Source: Fidelibacterota bacterium (lineage in GTDB: Bacteria > Fidelibacterota > Marinisomatia > SCGC-AAA003-L08 > TS1B11). From it: a stretch of DNA of 64,000 bases. Both the position numbers and the translations under genes were made by a program. The stretch's first letter is position 1, and each line of letters begins with the position of its first letter. Below are positions 17,248 through 40,724 of this stretch, in pieces. The stretch lies in contig SCKI01000010.1 in the NCBI GenBank assembly GCA_004124295.1, positions 1 through 64,000 of the forward strand. Reading direction: 5' to 3'. The notes beneath the pieces are model-generated. The model saw nothing but the letters and a program-made list of their open reading frames with translations, had not been told where the DNA came from and did not search any database.

Positions 17248-20200
17248 GTGAATAGATCTCGAAAGATCAGCTTGGCGGCCCTGGCCGTCATACTGGCGCT
17301 GGCCACGGTCATTTCCGTGCGGAAACCGGCTACCGGCGCACAGCCGGTGGAGCTGGCCTGGGGTGATCCCCAACGGCTGTTGGTCGCCCTGGGACAGCAA
17401 CTGGCTGACCTCGACCCCCGGGCTCCCGAAGCGGTGCGTCTTTCCCGTACGATCGCCTCCATCCGCCGGAAATCGGGCCAGACTGAGCCGAAGGCCCAGG
17501 ACCCGGGGGCCTTTCTGGAAGGGTTGGCCCAGGTCAAGACCGGCGTTGACGGCCGCACCTACAGCCCCGGCTACCGGACCCGTGAACGGGAGTGGGCCCT
17601 GGAGCGTTCCATCGGCGCCCTGCGCAAAGGCCAGCCGCCGAACTGGGTGGAGCGGGGACCGGGGAATGTCAGCGGCCGGGCCAGGGCCATTGCGGTCGAT
17701 CCCTCCGATCCGGCCGGAGACACCTGGTTCGTCGCCACGGTGGGCGGCGGAGTCTGGCTGACCAACGACGCGGGGGCCACCTGGAGCCCGATTACGCCCC
17801 AGCTCACCACACTCTCCACCACCAGCATCGCCATCAGCCAGTCCAACCCGGACGTGATCTACGTGGGGACCGGCATGGGTTATGGCCGGGTCATCGATCT
17901 GGCCGGCAGCGGGGTGTGGAAATCGGTGGACCACGGCCAGAGCTGGAGCCAGCTGCCCAACACCGCCAACGGCGAGCTGCTGGGGGCCATCAACCGGATT
18001 GTGGTCGATCCGCAGAACGAAAACCTGCTGCTGGTGGCCAGCAACAACAGCTACAGCTATCTTTCCCCCAACGGCGGCGACCGGACCGCGGGTATTTTCC
18101 GTTCGGCGGATGGGGGCGCCACCTGGACACGGGTGTTCGATCCCGATGCCGTTTTCGGCAGCCTGACCGATAACCGGGTGCAGCAGATTCTCGCCAACCC
18201 GCTGAATTTCAACACGCTCTACGCCACGGTTAACGAGGTGGGGATCATCAAATCGGTGGATGGCGGCCTCACCTGGGCCGTCTCGGTGGACACTCTGGCC
18301 CCCTATCTGGACGGAATCCAGGAGGGCAGCTACCAGGGCATCAGCACGCGCATCGAGATCGCGCCATAGCCCCCACCGATACTTCCCGCCTGTACGCTGC
18401 CGTGGAGCGCTGGAAGGGTATCGCCGACCTGTACGCCAGCCTGGACGCCGGGGCCAGCTGGCAGTTGATCAGCGACACCGGCAACGATCCCAACTGGTTC
18501 AACTCCTTCGGCATTTCCGGCGCGCTGGGCTACTCCGCCGGCTGGTTTGACAACACGATCATCGTCCATCCCAACGATCCCAATGTGGTTTTCGTGGGCG
18601 GCGTCAATACTTACCGGATCGATGTGACCCCGGCCAGCCTTAGCCGGCAGACCACTCCCATCGCCTGGAACTGGCCTAATGCGCAGGGCCTCTCCTATGC
18701 CCACGCAGACCACCACTGGTTGGCCATCATACCGGCCAATGACGGCTCGGGCAATTTCCGCATTCTGGATGCCAACGACGGCGGCATTGCCGTCTCCCCC
18801 GATGGTGGCGACAGTTGGCAGCAGCTGACCGGGATGGTCAGTACCCAGTTCTACGGCGTCGATAAAAAACCGGGCGAGAACGTCTTTATCGGTGGTATGC
18901 AGGATAACGGCACCTGGCGTTCGCCGGCGGATCCCAGCGCTACGTCGGCCTGGGTTTTTGATTGGGGCGGGGACGGCGTCGAAGTGGTCTGGAATTATGC
19001 CAATCCCGACCTGATTCTCGCCGGCTCCCAATGGGGCAATCTGACCCGGTCGGCGGATGGCGGCGCCAGCTGGGCAGCCGTTGGCGGCGGACCCCAGGGC
19101 AGCGGACCGTTCATCAGCAAGATCGCCGGCAGCAAGATTGATCCCGACCTGGTCTTCTCGGTGGGCACCGCCGGTATTCACCGGTCCGATGATTTCGGCG
19201 CCAGCTGGACCCTGACCCCCGTGACCACCAACTGGATCGGCAACCGGGCCTTCGACAATGTGGAAATATCGGTGGCCAATCCCCAGGTTGTCTGGGCGAC
19301 CTCCAAGCGGTCCTTCGATCTGCCCCTGGGCCGGCCGGGGGGCGTCCATGTGTCGGCTGACGGCGGCCTCACCTTCAGCGATATTTCCGCCAACCTGCCG
19401 CCGACCGTCAACGAGTCCTCCGGCCTTGCTACCCATCCCACGGATGACTCGACGGCCTACCTGCTGTTTTCGGCGCCGGACAATCCCAAGATTCTGAAAA
19501 CCACCGACCTCGGCCAGACCTGGGAGGATATCTCCGGTTATTCGCCGGCAACACAAACCGGCAGCCGGGGCCTGCCGAATGTGGCCGTCTTCAGTCTGCT
19601 GGTCATGCCCTTTAACGAAAATGAATTGTGGGCCGGTACGGAGATCGGCCTGTTCATCTCCCTCGACGGCGGCCTCACCTGGGCCTATGCCGATAACGGT
19701 CTGCCCCAGGTGTCCATTTTCCAGATGTCCATCGTTGACGATACGGTGCTGCTGGCCACCTACGGCAGAGGTCTGTGGACGGCCGCCCTGCCCGAGCTGG
19801 CCGGCTATACGCCACCCCTGGCCGTGCTCTCCCCCCGGCTGGCCAGCCCGGCCCAGGCGCCCACTGGACGGGTGGCGCTGCTGGTGGACTTGCGCTCGGC
19901 GTATGACTCCAGCAAGGTGTTCATCGCCGGCCAGGCCATCTACAATCTGGGCGCCAACAGCCTGCCCTACGACACCCTGTTGCATTATGCGCCGGTCGCA
20001 GAGGGACAAGTCAGCATCCAGGTACGGGGCTATAAAGGGGGCCGGGTCTATGCCAGTCCGGCCTATTCGGTTACGACCAGCCCCATTACCATCCTCAGCA
20101 AGTACAGCACCAGTTTCAACGCCGGCGACGAGGGCCATTTTTGGGGTAACGGTTTTTCCATTACTTCGGCCAGTGGATTTTCCTCCGTGGCCGCACACAC

Positions 20201-20951
20201 GGTCCACCCCTACCCCGAGGAGCTCCATCTGAGGTTCCAGTTGAACCCGTCCATTGCCGTGGCCCCGGCCGGCCAGGCGTTGATGACATTCGATGAAGTC
20301 GTGCTTGTGGAGGAGGGCCTGGTGGACGACTACCTGAACGCCAATTTCTTTGATTATGTCATCGTTGAGGGGAGTCTTGACGGGTCGACTTGGCTGCCCC
20401 TGTTGGACGGCTACGACTCGCGGGCCAAAATCGCCTGGTCTATCGCCTATAATGCCAACCTGTCGGGGGTGAATTCCACCACGCCGGGCAACGCATCCCT
20501 GTTTCTCAAACGCGTCATTGATCTCGGGGCGACCTTTAACCCACAGGATACCATTGCCATCCGCTTCCGGGTGTTTTCGGATGCGCTGGCCGTCGGTTGG
20601 GGCTGGGCTATCGATAACTTGCTGATTCAGTCCGACTCCCTCGACCAGGGCGAATTTAACGGACAGGTCCCCATCATATTCACGCTGCACCAAAATTTCC
20701 CCAACCCGTTCAACCTCGAAACGTCCATCCGTTTCGGTTTGCCCGAGGCGGAACAGGTCAGGCTGGCCATCTACGATGTGCGCGGCCGTCTGGTCCGTAC
20801 GCTCCAGGACGGCCTAATGGACGAGGGCTTTCACACCCTCCGCTGGCAGGGCCTCGACCAGTCGGGCCGGAGGGTTTCGTCCGGCGTTTACATCATCCGG
20901 CTGACCAGTTCCCTGGGGGCACGCACCATCAAGGCCATACTGCTCAAGTAA
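17248..20951 (+). CDS. Secreted sortilin-like BNR propeller protein with sorting tail, one frameshift
   Basis: The GTG start at 17248 lies 6 nt after GGAG and opens a signal peptide (SLAALAVILALATVISV). About ten Asp-box (BNR) motifs follow, such as SADGGATWTRV, SVDGGLTWAV, SLDAGASWQLI, SPDGGDSWQQL and SLDGGLTWAY, typical of sortilin/VPS10-like propellers. The first frame stops at 18369 (..RIEIAP), and the reading resumes in another frame (APTDTSRLYAAVERWKGIAD). A one-base loss near 18362 is the simplest explanation, by error or mutation. After the propeller comes a jelly-roll-like region (about 20100-20640), then a FlgD-like domain (NFPNPFNLETSIRFGLPE ... GVYIIRLTS) that serves as a C-terminal sorting signal. 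Total about 1,230 residues. Probably exported to the cell surface; ligand unknown. Confidence 0.82.
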
Positions 20952-31715: not shown

Positions 31716-32288
31716 ATGCCGCTAAAAAGTATCCTGCAATTGACCGCACTGGCCCTGATATCGTCAGCCTGCGGCAAGGTGGAATCCCACGAGCTCCGCC
31801 TTACGCACCCGCCTATCGTCTTCGGAGAATATGTTACCCAGACTGCCAGCACAGCCGATTTCGCCGGTCTGGAGGTAGAGGTCGCCATACCCGGACGGCG
31901 GCCGGAATACCAAACCCGGACCATCAAGGATAACGTGGTGCTGTCAAACCGGCGCCAGGCGGTGGATATCACCCTGAACAATCCTGCGGATCAGACCGCC
32001 CTGGCCCCGCAGGTGGTGACTGTCGCTTTCTACGACGGCCCCACCGGCGAACTGCTGGAAGTGCTCAGCTTCAGCAGCGCGGTCATTGCCCCCGGCGGAC
32101 AGATCACGACGACCCTGGAAACGGCGCATAAGGCCCCCTCCGGCACCTATTATTGGTCGTACCAGATTGATCTGGCCGAGGACTGGGAAATGGCGCTGGA
32201 GACCTGGGCCGCGGCAGCCACAGAGGAAGTCGAGGATGACGGCTGGGATGCTGAGGGCGACGATGGCTGGGAGGACGAGGACTGGTAA
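31716..32288 (+). CDS. Lipoprotein with acidic Trp-rich tail
   Basis: 190 residues. Lipobox LISSAC (lipidated Cys19) follows a short hydrophobic signal. The body (about 25-155) is beta-rich (EVAIPGRRPEYQTRTIKDNV, LAPQVVTVAFYDGPTGELLE) and looks like an immunoglobulin-like sandwich. The last ~25 residues are nearly all Asp/Glu/Gly/Trp (EEVEDDGWDAEGDDGWEDED), with two or three DDGW units. Such tails bind cations or basic partners, though this is an inference. It converges on the TPR lipoprotein gene with only 18 bp between stops. An acidic low-complexity tract recurs in the outer-membrane-like protein at 39819. Confidence 0.75.
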   Translation: MPLKSILQLTALALISSACGKVESHELRLTHPPIVFGEYVTQTASTADFAGLEVEVAIPGRRPEYQTRTIKDNVVLSNRRQAVDITLNNPADQTALAPQVVTVAFYDGPTGELLEVLSFSSAVIAPGGQITTTLETAHKAPSGTYYWSYQIDLAEDWEMALETWAAAATEEVEDDGWDAEGDDGWEDEDW

Positions 32289-32306
32289 ACCGGCCGCTGT
32301 GATCCT

Positions 32307-32921
32307 CTAGGAGCCGGAGGCCAGGTCTTGCAGCTTGGCAGCCAGTGCAGAGCGCCCCGCCACCGTGCTGACGTTGGCGTTAAAGGTGGCATCGAGTTTT
32401 TTGACCCAGACCAGACTGGAGTCAAATTCGGCCTGGCCATAAAAGCCGGTGGCCACCGTCAACATCAAATCTTCGTAGGTCAGCGATATGTCCCGCTTGA
32501 ATATCCATAGGGGCGTCTGGATGAGGGCCTCCTTGGCATCGGTCACCGCCGTGATGAACTCGCCCAGGGCCAGGCGGGCAAAGGCCCGGCCGGCCAGCGC
32601 CTCGGTGCCAACCTCGCTGCCAGCCTCAGTCGTGTCACCAAAAATAATGGCCTGGATAAAGTTGATCTCGCTCGTATCGGGGATGCCGAGCTGGATGTAG
32701 GTCCAGCCGAGACCGTTCCAGGTATCTGCGTAAGTCTCATCAAGCGCCAGCCCGTCATCGAACTGCTGCAGGGCCCCAGCGTAATCCCCTTGAATCCATA
32801 GCTCCCAGCCGTATTCGGTGTAATCGGGAGTCTCGGGCACCAGTTTTTCCCGGCAGGCGCTGCCGGCCAGCAGGATGACGGCTGCCCAGAGCAACGCGCG
32901 GACGGTATGCGCAGTTTTCAT
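32307..32921 (-). CDS. TPR-repeat lipoprotein
   Basis: 204 residues. Signal with lipobox LAGSAC (Cys23), then two to three TPR units (EYGWELWIQGDYAGALQQFD, LDETYADTWNGLGWTYIQLG, GRAFARLALGEFITAVTDAK). TPRs bind other proteins. Its ATG lies one base after the stop of the giant repeat protein gene upstream, so the two are almost certainly one transcription and translation unit. It may anchor or help assemble the giant protein at the envelope (inference). Confidence 0.82.
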   Translation of the reverse strand: MKTAHTVRALLWAAVILLAGSACREKLVPETPDYTEYGWELWIQGDYAGALQQFDDGLALDETYADTWNGLGWTYIQLGIPDTSEINFIQAIIFGDTTEAGSEVGTEALAGRAFARLALGEFITAVTDAKEALIQTPLWIFKRDISLTYEDLMLTVATGFYGQAEFDSSLVWVKKLDATFNANVSTVAGRSALAAKLQDLASGS

Positions 32922-32922
32922 C

Positions 32923-35900
32923 TTATCTCACCAGCGCCATTTTGTGGGTGAAATTCCGGCCACTGCTGGTTTCGAGCCTGACGAAATAAATGCCGCTGGA
33001 CACGGCCCGGCCCCGCTGGTCCCGGCCATCCCATACAATGTCGTAGCGCCCCGAAGGCAGGGCGCCGTCGACCAGGGTGGCTATGCGCTGCCCCAACAGG
33101 TTATAGATCACCACTGTCGCCTGCTGGTCCGGTCCATCCAGCAGACCTAAATCGAAGACGATATGCGTCTCCGGATTGAACGGATTGGGATAGTTGGCCT
33201 GCAGGCTCGTGGTGAGCGGCACGATGATGGTCCGGGGGCCGCGGCGGAATTCCCCGGCGCGACGGGTCCAGGCGACCAGCCGACCGCCCTCATCCACCGT
33301 TAACAGTTCCTGCCAACGGTTGCCCGGTTCCAGGATATAAATGGCCTGGCCCGAGTCAGCATCCCTTGATGCGCTGCGCCGCAGATGAATTTTCACCGGT
33401 TTATCGAATATCTGCCCCGGCGATCCCAGGCGGTACATGCCGCCCGTGCCCGAGGCTCCGAAGCCGGTGGAATCGATGAGCACCATGAGGCGGTCGGTAG
33501 GCACCGCACCGGCCGGCGCCACAGCAGCGAAGGCCCCATCCAGGGAGGCCACACTCCAGGGCTCCTGGGCCAGGGCCAGGGCAATGACGGTCGTCACGGT
33601 GATGGATGTATCGCCGAGGGCCGTGCTGCCGGTAGCCACGAAATCGAAGGTGCCCACCGAGTCGAGCTTGTGGGTCGCCAGGTAGGTGAAGGAATCGATG
33701 ACGGCCAAGGTGGCAGCCGTGCCGCCTATGGTCAGGGTGATTGAGTTGGCCATGGCCAGGGTGTCGATGACCATGACCTGCAAATGCTCATCCAAAGCGC
33801 TGTTTTGCACCACGCCGATAGTCAGCCGTGCCTTGTCGATGATGCGGACCCCATCGCTGGTGATGGCGGCGGTACGGTTGCCGGCGGCATCAGTGGCCCG
33901 GACAGTGGAATAATAGAACTGCTTGTAAATCAGCGCCTGGGTGATGGTAAAGGTGGTGTCGATGCCGTTGCCGGTCCAGTCCACCACATCCGAGTCACCG
34001 GCGGTGGTGCCCAGAGCATATTCGTACAGGGCGATAGGCGAGGCGGGATCGGTGAAGCCGCTGAAGGACCCCCGGTAGCGCGTCTGGACCCGGGTCGAAT
34101 CGACATCCAGCGAATCGGGGGCGTCGAGCAGGCTGGCGCCCGTGATGAGCGGGGCCAGGGTATCGTAGGTCATCAGCGTTACGCTGGCGGTATCGGCGTT
34201 GCCGGCGGCATCATTACCGATGATTTCGATGCGGTATTCACCCCCCTGCGCCAGCGGCGGGGGACTGGTTAACACGCCACTGTGGAGACCAGCGGCAATC
34301 TCGGCCGCCGTCAGGACCTGCACATGGGGCGTCGCGCCATCGCTGACCCCGGCATTGGCCAACCAGGTCCAGGTGATGGTGCCGGCATCGAGAGTCTCAC
34401 CCAGCGAATAGTCCACCGCTGTGGTCTTGACATAAGCCGAGGCAGCGGGGGAGGTGACCGCGATCACCGGAGCAATGTTATCCACCTTGAAGGTGTTGGT
34501 GCCCCCGGAGATGTGCACCACCGTATTGCCGGCCAGATCCTTGGCATCCACCGTAACCGTGGCGAAGCCGTCATTCCCGGCTGGGACGGCAACCTGAAAG
34601 GTCCAGATCGTATCCTGTCCGATGTTGACCATGGGTGTATCGGCGATGTCGCTGCCGCTGCCGGCATAATCAAAGGTCAGCCTGGGGATGGCCAGGAGCG
34701 GTTCCTCGAAGACGAAGGTCAGGTCAATATTCTCGCTCTCCCGGGCCAGGGAGTCGGAGTAGGCCACCGTGTAGCCCGGCGCCACATTGTCCAGCACCAG
34801 TTTATCAGGGTCGGTGATGTTACCCACCGGCAAGGCGTTACCGGCCAGATCGGTGGCACTGGTCAGGGTCAGGGTGACCGTCCCGCTGTTGTCCGTGGGC
34901 AGGATGGCCTCATAAGTGTAGACGGTGGTGCTGGTGGAATCCAGGGTTGCCGGCCCGATCACAGTCGGATTGTAGGTGAGGGTGATGTCCGGGGCTATCT
35001 GCAGGGCCTCATCGGCAGTGGCGGTGATCAGCACCGTATCGCCGGCCATGCCCAGGGTGTCACTGTAGGTAAAGGTGAGACTGGGGGGGGTGGTGTCGAT
35101 GATCAGGGCCTTCCCCAGAGCCAGCGAACCGGCTCCGCCGGGACTGGCCAGTGTCAGCACGGCAGCGTTGCCGGCAGGATCGGCCAGCGTGCCGCCATTC
35201 AGAGCCAGCGAAGTGGTGCCGGCAAAGTCGAGGTCGGCGCTGGTTTCTCCGGCAGCCACGGTGTAGACGAACAGGATCGTATCATTGGCCGAACCGGAGG
35301 TATAATCGACGACGGCATCGCTGGCGCCGGTCTCCAGGGTGATCTGGGGCGTGCCGCCGACGGTGATGTCCTCGTCGAACACGACCTCGATGGCGATGGC
35401 GCTGCCGGCGTTGTAGGAGCCGTCAGTCGTGGGCGAAATGACCTCCAGCACCGTGGGCGGCGTCGTATCAATGAGGAAGTCCTGACTGTCGCCCAGCGAT
35501 CCGCTGGCTCCGGCGGCAGGCAGGGTCACCGGCGAAACCACATTCCCGGCCACATCGGTGATGGTGGCGGCATTGAGCAGGAACGGCGTGCCGGTAATAT
35601 AGTCCAGGTCGGCGCTGGTCTCTCCGGCCGATACGGTGTAGTTAAAGGTCAGGGTGTCGCTGCCCGACCCGCTGGACATGCTCACCTGCGGATCGGTGGC
35701 CCCGGTTTCCAGCACCAGCAGCGGGGGGCCACCGGCAACAGTTACATCCTCATCAAACACAACGTCTATAGCCAGCAGGTCGCCCGCCATGTAAGCGCCG
35801 TCGGCATCCTCGGACGAAACCAGCAGCACCGTCGGCACCACCGTATCAATGTCAATGGCCTTGGCGCCACTGAGGGAGGCCGGACCGTTGGGCGTGTCGA

Positions 35901-38900
35901 GAGTCAGGGTGGCATCGTTGCCGGCAATGTCGCGGATGGTGCCGAGATTCAGGGCCAGGGCAGTGGTGGAGGCATAAGCCAGGTCGGTGACGTCGTGCCC
36001 TGCCTGAATGGTGTACTGGAACTTAAGGGTATCACTGGCCGAGCCACTGGTGTAGGCCACCGGGAAGCCAGCCCCCAGGTCAAGGGTCAGGGTGGGGGTC
36101 CCGCCGGTCTCATCGACGATCACAATTTCGGAGAAGGCCACCACCAGGTCAAAGCTGACCCCGGCCTTGTAGATGCCGTCCGGCTTGTTGGCCGCGACCA
36201 GGCTCACCGTGGGCACGATGCCATCCACCTGCAGATCTTTGTTGTCGGCCAGCGAACTGCCCCCGCCCAGCGCCGGAAGTGCCAGCGTGGCATCATTGCC
36301 GGCCAGGTCCCGGACGGTTCCGCCGTTCGGCGCCAGGGAATTGGTGGCCACGTACTCCAGGTCGCCGGTCTCGTGGCCGATGGCAACCGTGTACTGGAAT
36401 ATCCAGACCGAATCGGTGGAACCGCTGGTGTAATTGACCACGGCATCGCTGCCGCCGGTCTCCAGGGTCAGTTGAGGCGACCCGCCCACGTAAACTTTTT
36501 CGGAAAAATCGACCTGCACATCGATGGTGCTGTCGGCCAGGTAATACTGGTTGGCGTCCGGGGAGGTAACCTGCACCACCGTGGGAGGTGTCGTGTCAAT
36601 GATGATGTCCTTGGAGCCGCCGATTGACAGCGGGTCGCCTGGGGTGGCCAAGGTCAGAACGGCATCATTCAGGGCCACATCGCGAATCGTGCCTCCATTG
36701 AGGGCCAGGGCCGTGGTGGTGGTGTAATCGAGATCGGTCGTGTTTTCCCCGGCGGCGATCCAGTAGTTGAACTGCAAGTTGGTGGACCCGGAACCGGCAA
36801 CGTAATCGGCCACGCCATCACTGGCCCCGGTCTCCACAGTTATCTGGGGTGTACCTGTAACATCGACGGCTTCATCGAAAAGCACAAATATGGGAATGCC
36901 CACGCCTACCGTATATGACCCGTCCAAAGCGGATGCGGTGACCGACACAACGGCGGGCGCCTGGGTATCGATGATAATGTCCTTGCTGGCGCTCAGCGAG
37001 TTGGCCATGCCGGGGGTCGCCAGGGTCAGGGTGGCATCGTTCCCCGAGGCATCCTTGATGGAGGCGCCGGCCAACAGAGAGCTGGCATCAACATAGGCCA
37101 GATCGGCGCTGGTCTGGCCGGCCTGCACCGTGTAGCGGAATGTGAGCACAGTGGTTGTAGTGCCGGAGAGGTAGTTGACCAGATAGCCACCACCCAGATC
37201 CAGGTTCAGGGTCGGTGTACCGCCAACAGTCACTGCATCATCAAATGTCACGGTAAGATCGATAACATCGGCGGCCTTGTAGCTGCCATCCAGGACGGCG
37301 GAGGAAACGCCTGACACCACCGGCCGGATGCCGTCAATGACGATGGCTTCCACATCGTCCAGGTTCAGGTTGGCGGGGATGGTGAAGTCGGTCATGGCAT
37401 TGCCGAAATCATCTTCCAGGGTACCGGCGCTCATGCTCACGGAGGTGACAGAGAGGTCGGCGGATGTATGCCCCTCCAGCACGGTGTAGGTGCCCGAGGC
37501 GGTGAGGGAGCTGACCACGCCGGATATCGTGATCTGCTGATCCGACGGGCCGGTCTCCAATTGGACGACGATACTGCCGCCGCCGGCGGTGGTCACCGCT
37601 TCGCTGAAGTCGATGGTGATGTTGACCATGGCGCCGATGGCGTAGGTGGCGTCAATATCGGTGCTGCGAATGCCGGTGATGGTGGGCCGGACGCCATCCA
37701 CCACGAGGGCCTTCGAATCGGATATATTCTGGCCTCCGGGGATCGTGAAGTCCACAATATTGTTGCCGCCGGCATCCTCCAGCGTCCCGCCGGAGAGGCC
37801 CAGGGAAGCGGCATCAAGGTCGGCGGAGACATCCCCCTCAGCCACTGTGTAGATACCCACGGCGGTAGAGGAATTGGTGATGGGCGATATGGCCGCTATG
37901 GTGCCGCTGCCTCCGTTGGCCAGGGTCACATCCAGGGTCTGGGCGACAGTCAGGGTCACCGGCTCCGACATGGTGACCTGGATGGATATAGCAGCACCGA
38001 TGCCGTAATTGGCATTGGCGCTGAGGGAGGTGACGCTGGTAACCGTGGGGCGGACGCCATCAATGACGATGTCCTTGCTGGCCGCCAGGTTGGAGGTCTG
38101 GATGGCGAAATCGGTCATCGTGTTGCCGGCCAGGTCCCGCAAGGCCGTGGAGGGATCGGCCACCGCGCTGACCGTCAAATCGCCGGAGACATCACCGAGT
38201 ATCACCATATAAGTGCCGGTGCCCGAGGAGGAGTTTGAAAAGGGGGTGATAAAAGCGATCTGGTCCGTGGCCCCGGTCTCCAGGGTCACCTCAACGTTGC
38301 CCCCGGACACGTTGACATTCTCACTGAAATTGAGCGTAATGGAAACGTTGTCGCCGATGCCGTAAGTACCGTTTCCTGTCGAGGAAGTGACCGTAAGTAA
38401 AGTCGGCCGGATGCCATCCACCAGTATTGAGCTGGTACTGGAGAGCAGGGAAACGGGTATAAAATCGGTCATCGAGTTGCCCGCAAGGTCCTTCACGGTG
38501 CCGCTGCCGGTTGGCTCTATGACGGATGTGGCAAGGTCGGAACTATTATCGCCCTCTACGATTGTATAATTGCCTGCAACGAAAAGGTAAGTGGCAGGGG
38601 TAAAAACGACGGACCGGTCCACGTCGCCGGTCTCGAAGGTGACCTGCAGGTTATCGTTGGCTACAACCGTTGTCTCACTGAAGTCGACCCTGAAGGCAAT
38701 GACATCGCCGATCCCGTAGGAGCCGTTGGAAGTGGTGGAGGTAACACTGGTAATGAAAGGCCGGACGCCGTCAATGTTCAACGTACTGGAAGCTGACAGT
38801 GCAGCGGCTGGCGCAAAATTTGAAAGCACATTCCCGGCGGCGTCGGTAATGGAGCTGGCGGTGATGGAAATGGTGCTGTTGTTAAGAGGGTTCACCTCAT

Positions 38901-39597
38901 CGCCGGTGCCCACCGTGTAATCCGCGCTGGCAGTTGTATTGTAGGCTCCCGCAGGAACGGAAACAACATCTCCGGTGTTAAGCAGCGTTTCAAGGCTCCC
39001 GCCACCACCTAAAGTGACATTTTCACTGAAATTGACCTCGATGCTGATCATTTCGCCAATGGCCTGGGTGCCGGTGGAAGGGGTCGATGTAACACTCAAA
39101 ATGGTGGGCTTGGTAACGTCGAAAGTCAGGTTGAAGCCACCCCCAAGCACTGTGGCGCTGTCAGTAGCGATAAGGCCGCTACCGTTATCCACAATGCCAA
39201 AGGTGAACAGGTCGCCGTCAGACAGGAAGTAGGGGTCCCCGATAAGCATATTATGGGTGATTTGTACTCTTGCTGTACCGGCACCGCTATTGCTGACAGT
39301 TCCCGTGTTGTTAAAAACCTCGTTAAAGTAAATATCGGTACCGGGGGACCAGGTGGCGGCATTATTTTTTTTAAACAGAAATTTTGAGTCACCATCCACC
39401 ACCAAGCCGCTGAAGTCAATACGTACCCCACCGGTAGTGATGGCGGTGCCCGTTGAGTACTGGCTGTCCAACAGGTTGTAAAAATCGGCGACGTGGGCCG
39501 AAGGAGTATCGTACTCCCGGACTGGCTTCAGCTCAGCGACGACCTGCCCCCACAGGCCCAGCGGCAGCAGGAACAGCAGCAGGGCCCGGCGCAGCAT
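32923..39597 (-). CDS. Giant secreted repeat protein (about 2,224 residues) with sorting tail
   Basis: The ATG at 39597 opens a signal peptide (MLRRALLLFLLPLGLWGQVV); thirty further in-frame codons upstream do not look like signal sequence. After a unique N-terminal domain come about eleven repeats of ~113 residues (roughly 165-1410), each built as D-x-x-x-PT-x-x-x-V-x-S...DGxYxxG...IxVxFSExV.VxG.P.xxLETG...F.YTVxxGxxSxDLxY....LxxG.IxDxAGN. This is a cadherin/Big-like sandwich design, probably calcium-binding and rod-like. Four shorter Ig-like units follow, then a globular region and a FlgD-like sorting domain (NYPNPFNPETHIVFDLG ... SSGIYFVRLETSS). It is likely a surface adhesin or stalk. The TPR lipoprotein gene follows after 1 bp. 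Confidence 0.88.
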   Translation of the reverse strand: MLRRALLLFLLPLGLWGQVVAELKPVREYDTPSAHVADFYNLLDSQYSTGTAITTGGVRIDFSGLVVDGDSKFLFKKNNAATWSPGTDIYFNEVFNNTGTVSNSGAGTARVQITHNMLIGDPYFLSDGDLFTFGIVDNGSGLIATDSATVLGGGFNLTFDVTKPTILSVTSTPSTGTQAIGEMISIEVNFSENVTLGGGGSLETLLNTGDVVSVPAGAYNTTASADYTVGTGDEVNPLNNSTISITASSITDAAGNVLSNFAPAAALSASSTLNIDGVRPFITSVTSTTSNGSYGIGDVIAFRVDFSETTVVANDNLQVTFETGDVDRSVVFTPATYLFVAGNYTIVEGDNSSDLATSVIEPTGSGTVKDLAGNSMTDFIPVSLLSSTSSILVDGIRPTLLTVTSSTGNGTYGIGDNVSITLNFSENVNVSGGNVEVTLETGATDQIAFITPFSNSSSGTGTYMVILGDVSGDLTVSAVADPSTALRDLAGNTMTDFAIQTSNLAASKDIVIDGVRPTVTSVTSLSANANYGIGAAISIQVTMSEPVTLTVAQTLDVTLANGGSGTIAAISPITNSSTAVGIYTVAEGDVSADLDAASLGLSGGTLEDAGGNNIVDFTIPGGQNISDSKALVVDGVRPTITGIRSTDIDATYAIGAMVNITIDFSEAVTTAGGGSIVVQLETGPSDQQITISGVVSSLTASGTYTVLEGHTSADLSVTSVSMSAGTLEDDFGNAMTDFTIPANLNLDDVEAIVIDGIRPVVSGVSSAVLDGSYKAADVIDLTVTFDDAVTVGGTPTLNLDLGGGYLVNYLSGTTTTVLTFRYTVQAGQTSADLAYVDASSLLAGASIKDASGNDATLTLATPGMANSLSASKDIIIDTQAPAVVSVTASALDGSYTVGVGIPIFVLFDEAVDVTGTPQITVETGASDGVADYVAGSGSTNLQFNYWIAAGENTTDLDYTTTTALALNGGTIRDVALNDAVLTLATPGDPLSIGGSKDIIIDTTPPTVVQVTSPDANQYYLADSTIDVQVDFSEKVYVGGSPQLTLETGGSDAVVNYTSGSTDSVWIFQYTVAIGHETGDLEYVATNSLAPNGGTVRDLAGNDATLALPALGGGSSLADNKDLQVDGIVPTVSLVAANKPDGIYKAGVSFDLVVAFSEIVIVDETGGTPTLTLDLGAGFPVAYTSGSASDTLKFQYTIQAGHDVTDLAYASTTALALNLGTIRDIAGNDATLTLDTPNGPASLSGAKAIDIDTVVPTVLLVSSEDADGAYMAGDLLAIDVVFDEDVTVAGGPPLLVLETGATDPQVSMSSGSGSDTLTFNYTVSAGETSADLDYITGTPFLLNAATITDVAGNVVSPVTLPAAGASGSLGDSQDFLIDTTPPTVLEVISPTTDGSYNAGSAIAIEVVFDEDITVGGTPQITLETGASDAVVDYTSGSANDTILFVYTVAAGETSADLDFAGTTSLALNGGTLADPAGNAAVLTLASPGGAGSLALGKALIIDTTPPSLTFTYSDTLGMAGDTVLITATADEALQIAPDITLTYNPTVIGPATLDSTSTTVYTYEAILPTDNSGTVTLTLTSATDLAGNALPVGNITDPDKLVLDNVAPGYTVAYSDSLARESENIDLTFVFEEPLLAIPRLTFDYAGSGSDIADTPMVNIGQDTIWTFQVAVPAGNDGFATVTVDAKDLAGNTVVHISGGTNTFKVDNIAPVIAVTSPAASAYVKTTAVDYSLGETLDAGTITWTWLANAGVSDGATPHVQVLTAAEIAAGLHSGVLTSPPPLAQGGEYRIEIIGNDAAGNADTASVTLMTYDTLAPLITGASLLDAPDSLDVDSTRVQTRYRGSFSGFTDPASPIALYEYALGTTAGDSDVVDWTGNGIDTTFTITQALIYKQFYYSTVRATDAAGNRTAAITSDGVRIIDKARLTIGVVQNSALDEHLQVMVIDTLAMANSITLTIGGTAATLAVIDSFTYLATHKLDSVGTFDFVATGSTALGDTSITVTTVIALALAQEPWSVASLDGAFAAVAPAGAVPTDRLMVLIDSTGFGASGTGGMYRLGSPGQIFDKPVKIHLRRSASRDADSGQAIYILEPGNRWQELLTVDEGGRLVAWTRRAGEFRRGPRTIIVPLTTSLQANYPNPFNPETHIVFDLGLLDGPDQQATVVIYNLLGQRIATLVDGALPSGRYDIVWDGRDQRGRAVSSGIYFVRLETSSGRNFTHKMALVR

Positions 39598-39818
39598 AAC
39601 GGCTACCGGTCGCGGTCGCGGGGTATTATGGGGCAATAGGGTCACATTTTTTCCAAGGTCAATGGCCGCCAGAATATAATCCGCCAATTTAACCTGTTAT
39701 ACTAAAACATGAAGCGTTATGTGGAAGTGATCTGCGTCAACTGGAGAAGTTGCTTGTGCGCCCCGTCAAGTCTGCCGGGTGCCCCGGGTCACAAAAGCAG
39801 CCGGCTCTTTCCGGGCCC

Positions 39819-40724
39819 TCAAAACAGGTAGCCGAGGCTCCCGCCGATATCCATCCAGTAGGCGGCGCCGCCGGTACCGGTATCCATGACATAATTCAGC
39901 CGGGTATCAACCGTGACGCTCATGAAGCGGATAAACGGCACCCGGTAGGAGGTACCCAGCATGATGCCGCCGGTAAGCACGTCGAAGCCGTACAGGCCGC
40001 CGCCGGTGGAGAGTTCCAGCGGCCCCCAGGGGAAGCGCAGGTAGGCCAGCATGGCGATCCCCTTGAAGGCGCCGCCCGAGGGGTGCTGATTGACAAAACT
40101 GTAGCTGCCCAGCTCCAGTGAATAGGAGAGGGTCTGTCCGGCCAAGGTCTTTTGGGGGAAATCGAGGGTCAGCCGGCCGTCCACCAGGGAGTGCCACCAG
40201 GAGTCGAAGGCCAAGCCTACCAGCCAGGGAGATGCAATCGTCAGTTTGGCGGTATAACCCAGCGGTATGCGCGGCTCCTTGATTTCTCGCTGTTCTATTT
40301 CCTGCAGCTCCACCTCGCCGGCCCGCGCATCTGCCAGGGCCAGAGAGTCATCCTCCGCCAGGCCGTCGAACTCGTCCAGCTCCCCTTCACTAAAATCGTC
40401 ATCAAAACCCTCATCATCGTAAAACTCATCGAAATCCCCGCCTTCATCATCATAGTACTCGTCGTCATAATACTCATCATCGCCGTATTCATCATCGTAA
40501 TACTCGTCGTCGGCATATTCGTCATCGAAGTAACCTTCGTCGTCGTAATATTCGTCGTAGTAATCGTCCTCAAAATAGCCGGTGTCCGCTGGAGCCGGGT
40601 CCTGGGCCTGGGCCGCCAGGGGCCATAAAGCCAGCAGGCAGACGATTCCCAGCCGTCGCCAGAGGGACCTGCGATGGAATAGGCCGGGAGGTCTTGGGTC
40701 AGTTTGCGGTGCGGAGATAAGCAT
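39819..40724 (-). CDS. Outer-membrane-like protein with Asp/Glu/Tyr-rich tract
   Basis: 301 residues. A basic N-terminus leads to the signal LGIVCLLALWPLAAQAQ. Residues ~48-130 are an extreme low-complexity tract made of units such as YYDDEYxDDEYYDDEYGDD, almost only Asp, Glu, Tyr, Phe and Gly, with about half acidic residues. The C-terminal ~150 residues have alternating beta-strands with aromatic ends (LTLDFPQKTLAGQTLSYSLE, LSTGGGLYGFDVLTGGIMLG) and a final ...GGSLGYLF, the pattern of a small beta-barrel ending in Phe. It is probably an outer-membrane protein exposing or holding a cation-binding acidic segment. It lies 221 bp upstream of the giant repeat gene on the same strand. Confidence 0.78.
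   Translation of the reverse strand: MLISAPQTDPRPPGLFHRRSLWRRLGIVCLLALWPLAAQAQDPAPADTGYFEDDYYDEYYDDEGYFDDEYADDEYYDDEYGDDEYYDDEYYDDEGGDFDEFYDDEGFDDDFSEGELDEFDGLAEDDSLALADARAGEVELQEIEQREIKEPRIPLGYTAKLTIASPWLVGLAFDSWWHSLVDGRLTLDFPQKTLAGQTLSYSLELGSYSFVNQHPSGGAFKGIAMLAYLRFPWGPLELSTGGGLYGFDVLTGGIMLGTSYRVPFIRFMSVTVDTRLNYVMDTGTGGAAYWMDIGGSLGYLF

Follow-up and report, generated by a model that had tools for sequence, protein, structure and literature searches.

Gene organisation of the locus

The window, a stretch of 64,000 nucleotides, comes from a member of the Marinimicrobia (SAR406), an abundant and mostly uncultured phylum that now goes under the name Fidelibacterota (PMC11652737). Three genes follow one another on its minus strand. 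The first (39819..40724) encodes an acidic barrel protein of 301 amino acids (aa), with a signal peptide ending in ...LAAQA, a tract rich in Asp, Glu and Tyr (D/E/Y tract) and a C-terminal barrel domain at approximately residues 156-301. The second (32923..39597) encodes a giant repeat protein, the frame of which is open from a TTG at 39687, with a signal peptide, MLRRALLLFLLPLGLWGQVVA, that begins at the ATG at 39597 and gives a product of 2,224 aa. The third (32307..32921) encodes a TPR lipoprotein of 204 aa with the motif ...LLAGSAC, and is separated from the giant gene by a single base (32922). A fourth gene, convergent to the TPR gene, encodes a lipoprotein with an acidic DDGW tail (31716..32288), and 18 bp lie between the ends of these two genes. 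The preliminary description of this DNA had placed four open reading frames here in the same order and with the same spacing, and all of this was recovered from the sequence and its list of open reading frames. In a scan of the locus, promoter- and terminator-like sites did not rise above the level of shuffled sequences, and the claim that the genes are co-transcribed therefore rests on their spacing and conservation.

The acidic barrel protein

The D/E/Y tract (40350..40590, minus strand; approximately residues 47-125) is encoded by tandem repeats of 15/45 bp, and the best stretch of 60 residues contains 35 acidic ones, so that the extreme composition reported earlier for this exported protein is indeed present. 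Judging from this composition, the tract is probably disordered. The protein has no match in Pfam or NCBIfam, 12 relatives of the barrel gave no credible Pfam match, and the barrel profile found no PDB sequence either; the predicted barrel is one without a curated family model. The AlphaFold2 model of the C-terminal 172 residues has eight strands (pLDDT 81.5, pTM 0.72), with a pLDDT of around 90 or higher over much of the strand region, and its best PDB match in Foldseek is to the barrels of OmpA (probability 1.00, TM 0.56), with further matches to OmpT, OmpW, OmpX, PagL and NspA. The C-terminal domain is predicted to be an eight-stranded barrel of the OmpA type, as the outer-membrane-like appearance of the protein had led one to expect.

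Both ends of eight-stranded barrels, as of even-stranded barrels generally, face the periplasm, and the acidic tract is for that reason predicted to be periplasmic. On this topology the tract does not lie on the surface, and it could not simply bind a rod on the outside. We also considered the acidic tail as a sink for calcium and set this aside as implausible in seawater.

In the class of the window organism the best 60 residues mostly contain 30-47 acidic ones; the tract is weaker in families f23 and f30, and it is absent from some of the second barrels of f30 and f31. In the second barrel of f31 a long, non-acidic N-terminal part rich in P and K replaces it. The constant feature is the barrel, not the acidity. 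Well conserved within the barrel are one putative outward loop, loop 2 (QHPSGG in the window), and an SP...V motif that ends strand 1. Such conservation of an outward loop is unusual for exposed loops, and is consistent with the existence of a conserved partner.

The giant protein and the TPR lipoprotein

After the signal peptide and a variable N-terminus, the giant protein continues with 11 Ig-like repeats, each some 120 aa long and pairwise 26-55% identical, and four more Ig-like units. These are followed by a conserved base, delimited from conservation and from the structural model, which consists of an Ig-like and a ZU5-like module (33190..33900, minus strand; approximately residues 1900-2136), and finally by a type A sorting domain of the type IX secretion system (T9SS), with the motif NYPNPFNP... 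(32926..33190, minus strand). The matches above the Pfam cut-off are Big_5 (48.5 bits) and FlgD_ig (35.8 bits), and the NCBIfam model for the type A sorting domain, TIGR04183, reaches 26.0 bits where the cut-off is 23; by sequence, the giant found no match in the PDB. The description as an exported repeat protein of about 2,224 residues with a FlgD-like sorting domain is thus confirmed by the signal peptide, the repeats and the FlgD_ig match. At several positions an acidic residue recurs in 10 or more of the 11 repeats, a pattern that is at most compatible with calcium binding at the domain junctions.

The N-terminus and the shaft of the giant vary among relatives, the C-terminal 320 residues are kept in all of them, and the base module and the sorting domain are the best conserved parts of the protein. 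The shaft of the window giant is made of Big_5-like repeats, while in a congener (G001) the repeats of the window are missing altogether and the shaft has eight Calx-beta domains. Elsewhere the shaft has nine Calx-beta domains (G006) or nine Big_13 domains (G009), and in others it is likewise built of Calx-beta or Big_13. The preliminary description had seen a rod in this protein, and a secreted multi-domain rod it still appears to be, but the repeat type of the window is not a conserved part of it. When the giant of the congener (L049 5073-11195) is set beside that of the window (32923-39597), the shaft has been fully replaced within one genus while the base and the neighbouring genes are kept, which suggests replacement by recombination. 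The largest giants of the set, of 4,300 to more than 5,400 aa, were seen in family f13 (L105 2465-15385, L106 3207-19499).

A model of the C-terminal 320 residues of the giant is of moderate quality (pLDDT 73.9, pTM 0.50). One of its domains matches the ZU5 domains of ankyrins (TM 0.56-0.61 over about 150 columns) and there are also Ig-like domains resembling those of SiiE. At this quality of prediction the base may be described as having a ZU5-like fold. Against Pfam, only one of eight members of the base module has a match, to Big_7.

The TPR lipoprotein matches TPR_2 above the Pfam cut-off and contains TPR motifs only. We also considered, and dropped, a binding of the acidic tail by this protein through charge, since the TPR proteins carry a net negative charge too.

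Conservation and distribution of the unit

We searched 171 genomes of the class with one profile for the barrel and another for the TPR protein. In 31 genomes strong matches to both share a contig at no more than 22 kb from each other, and in all 31 pairs the barrel comes first, on the same strand, at a distance of 6.4-18 kb that corresponds to the length of the giant. In 20 genomes the two fall on separate contigs, as is to be expected of assemblies that break at long repeats. Two genomes on a single contig (G002 and G010) have the barrel far away from the giant base and the TPR gene, and the giant is split or partly missing. In G002 the barrel gene at 1.60 Mb is accompanied by the N-terminal part of the giant (L051 8810-10790), and the base and the TPR gene are found together at 2.18 Mb, on the opposite strand (L052 6758-8993). 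Either an inversion by way of the repeats or a misassembly could account for this arrangement.

The C-terminal module of the giant, searched as a profile from which the sorting domain had been left out, occurs in 78 genomes of the class and is practically single-copy. Among the strong matches to the TPR lipoprotein in the 171 genomes, 77 of 78 lie 336-734 bp downstream of this module on the same strand, and the lone exception, like the two modules that have no TPR gene, is truncated or at a contig end. In the individual loci examined, the TPR gene stands directly after the giant gene in 38 of 39 giants (32 once doubly sampled contigs are removed), and the last giant runs off its stretch. Giants without a TPR gene were thus seen at contig ends only, and the giant gene is not one that relatives carry without this neighbour; the three minus-strand genes are kept together. 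Most of the giant-TPR gaps measure -4 or -1 bp (overlaps of the ATGA type), which suggests translational coupling. On the other side, the barrel gene comes immediately before the giant in 28 rows of our data, at a gap of 6-33 bp in most families as against 165-222 bp in f1, the family of the window itself.

Trees of the barrel, the base and the TPR protein correlate with Mantel r of 0.79, 0.83 and 0.91, values that none of 999 permutations reached; the part of the giant used in this comparison was the true C-terminal 320 aa (r 0.83-0.91). This co-inheritance tracks the species tree and is not a proof of interaction, and it could in part reflect the common descent of a stable operon.

The unit is found in other classes of the phylum also; family f23 carries it in full, and so does G173, a genome on one contig (2,788,509 bases), in which the local G+C is 48.5%. 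Such recurrence across class and phylum puts the arrangement far beyond chance, and what the preliminary description could only propose as a system is a real and conserved one as far as the three minus-strand genes are concerned. Relatives that carry it (26 loci) are labelled Candidatus Marinimicrobia or Neomarinimicrobiota, save for a few labelled as FCB group and for single contigs of metagenome-assembled genomes labelled as Gammaproteobacteria and Thiotrichaceae, which we take for mis-binning. The spread outside the phylum was examined with strict patterns and a search of plasmids; a plasmid collection searched with the barrel gave no match, and neither did viral contigs searched with citrate synthase.

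The convergent lipoprotein, which had been described alongside the system, does not belong to it in the same sense. It adjoins the unit in only two other genomes examined, both of the same family (G001, L049; G003, L058), where the counterparts have similar acidic, W-rich tails and sit in the same place, and it is absent from this place in the other family members examined. It is a local neighbour with a conserved acidic tail of its own, outside the conserved unit.

Some variants of the arrangement were seen. Families f30 and f31 have two tandem barrel genes ahead of the giant (L099 8067-16671, L101 1-11190), and in one genome (G007, L056 5696-18748) the giant and the TPR lipoprotein have been duplicated together in tandem.

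Type IX secretion in the class

The genome of the window has a match to SprA (G000:C1:430143, E 7.7e-84), and SprA was found in 161 of the 171 class genomes, with no exception among the 59 of good quality, which makes the type IX system a general property of the class. The same genome encodes two proteins of the PorV family above the cut-off, one C25 protease of 1,295 aa that is a putative PorU, and 33 FlgD_ig proteins. Neither PorP/SprF (TIGR03519) nor GldK was found above the cut-off in this genome, but these are weak negatives as the controls were silent (TIGR03519) or unspecific. Many genes with Por sorting domains have earlier been reported in SAR406 (PMC5596340). That report was all that we found in the literature on Marinimicrobia and the T9SS; we found no description of the three-gene unit, and nothing on how Marinimicrobia build surface structures.

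Another T9SS cargo lies in the window itself (18402-20951), a protein of 849 aa with repeats of the sortilin/BNR type, related to the F510_1955 glycosylhydrolases, and its C-terminal end is a FlgD_ig sorting domain of the same kind as that of the giant.

Discussion

Two known systems come to mind when looking at the unit. In the gliding system of Flavobacterium johnsoniae (PMC12635249) the gene for SprB, a giant repetitive T9SS adhesin, likewise lies beside the gene for an outer-membrane barrel, the PorP/SprF-type carrier SprF. However, SprB has a type B C-terminal domain (CTD) and SprF is a 14-stranded barrel of the FadL type (PMC9143113), whereas our giant has type A as its sole sorting-domain match, with none to the type B model TIGR04131, and the acidic protein is predicted with eight strands, carries an acidic tail, and has OmpA as its best match and no NCBIfam match, TIGR03519 included. 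The complex of PorE, PorP and PG1035 in Porphyromonas gingivalis resembles the unit in combining a T9SS cargo, an outer-membrane barrel and a TPR lipoprotein (PMC9143113), the last of which is placed at the periplasmic side of the outer membrane (PMC5053529). Here too the differences are considerable, for PorE has in addition a propeller, a CRD and OmpA_C, all of which the 204 aa of our TPR protein lack, PorP is of the FadL type, PG1035 is a type B cargo, and the sequences are unrelated as far as tested. That SprF anchors SprB, and that PorE, PorP and PG1035 form a complex, has experimental support (PMC9143113, PMC12618676). The best reading is that the unit is analogous to both systems and not homologous with either. 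The likeness to OmpA is limited to the predicted eight-stranded fold, that of its N-terminal barrel, with about 10-13% identity and a TM of approximately 0.56, and the acidic tail is N-terminal while the peptidoglycan-binding domain of OmpA is C-terminal. The giant shares with adhesins of the SiiE type the long array of bacterial Ig-like domains, and its base model matches SiiE, but SiiE is a cargo of type I secretion and the export signal of the giant is of T9SS type A.

The giant carries TIGR04183, and SprA, PorV and a PorU-type C25 protease are all encoded in the genome, as expected for a type A cargo. The giant would be exported by Sec and then routed by the type A signal across the outer membrane through the T9SS, the established route for signals of this kind. 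The variable shaft would point outward, where it may have an adhesive or structural role, and the ZU5-like base and the sorting domain would remain at the membrane. There the acidic barrel protein would serve the base as a dedicated outer-membrane partner that receives or holds the rod and extends its acidic tail into the periplasm, and the TPR lipoprotein would be a scaffold on the periplasmic side. Because the neighbours are invariable, a dedicated role in assembly or anchoring is indicated, and we find it probable that the unit is such a set of partners for a giant T9SS surface rod, with its members in physical contact. In Bacteroidota, PorV acts as the general carrier that collects type A cargo, which does not require a partner of its own (PMC12618676), and for this reason the partner role of the barrel is something that we can only infer. 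It also counts against the role that the barrel and the giant base are apart in G002 and G010, and that the fold matches have a modest TM (0.56 to OmpA, around 0.6 to ZU5).

An alternative is that the barrel and the TPR protein act during export only. The acidic tail and the TPR domain would then hold the long, calcium-prone repeat protein in the periplasm, so that it neither folds nor clogs the translocon, and the finished rod would be anchored by the general PorU/PorV path. The acidic tract is predicted to be periplasmic from the topology of the barrel, the giant and the TPR protein appear to be translationally coupled as judged from their gaps, the shafts are made of Calx-beta or Ig-like repeats, and genes of the PorV and PorU type are present in the genome, all of which would fit. 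A short tail, however, could hardly buffer the calcium of seawater, some members that have both barrel and giant have a weak acidic tract or none, and the putative outward loop 2 is among the better conserved parts of the barrel, which suggests a partner on the outside. We therefore consider this explanation unlikely.

Less likely still is that the barrel with its acidic tail is an envelope tether like OmpA, functionally unrelated to the giant and merely co-regulated with it as another abundant surface protein. The OmpA barrel is after all the best structural neighbour, and in f1 the wide gap between barrel and giant contains a weak promoter-like site, albeit one not above shuffled sequences. 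Against this stand the tight linkage in most other families, an order that is invariable over the class, and the congruent trees of the barrel, the base and the TPR protein. That the unit drives or serves surface motility, with the giant as a gliding adhesin like SprB, is suggested by the analogy with SprB/SprF (PMC12635249) and by a giant acidic repeat protein with a T9SS signal, but is highly improbable given a sorting domain of type A and not type B, the weak negatives for PorP/SprF-family proteins and GldK in the window genome, and the description of the cultured Fidelibacter multiformis as non-motile (PMC11652737).

One can go a step further and propose, with somewhat less than an even chance of being right, that the unit stands for an undescribed, phylum-wide class of T9SS surface structures, in which giant type A rods, whose shafts can be exchanged, are set on a dedicated, eight-stranded, acidic-tailed barrel and a TPR lipoprotein. 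Anchoring would then be specific to the cargo without barrels of the PorP/SprF type, and would not follow the general PorV path alone. From the conserved unit, research on the T9SS would gain an arrangement for the anchoring of cargo outside the Bacteroidota, and the unit would be a first handle on the attachment or protection of Marinimicrobia cells, which are abundant in the ocean and nearly all uncultured. The fixed base and partners, as against a shaft that has been swapped between congeneric species, also make the unit a natural experiment, and a clean one, on the modularity of surface proteins.

One genome (G015, L113 2906-13861) has, in a row, a different exported protein, a T9SS cargo of 1,694 aa, a TPR lipoprotein of 389 aa and a second T9SS cargo, and TPR lipoproteins beside T9SS cargo may thus be a wider theme.
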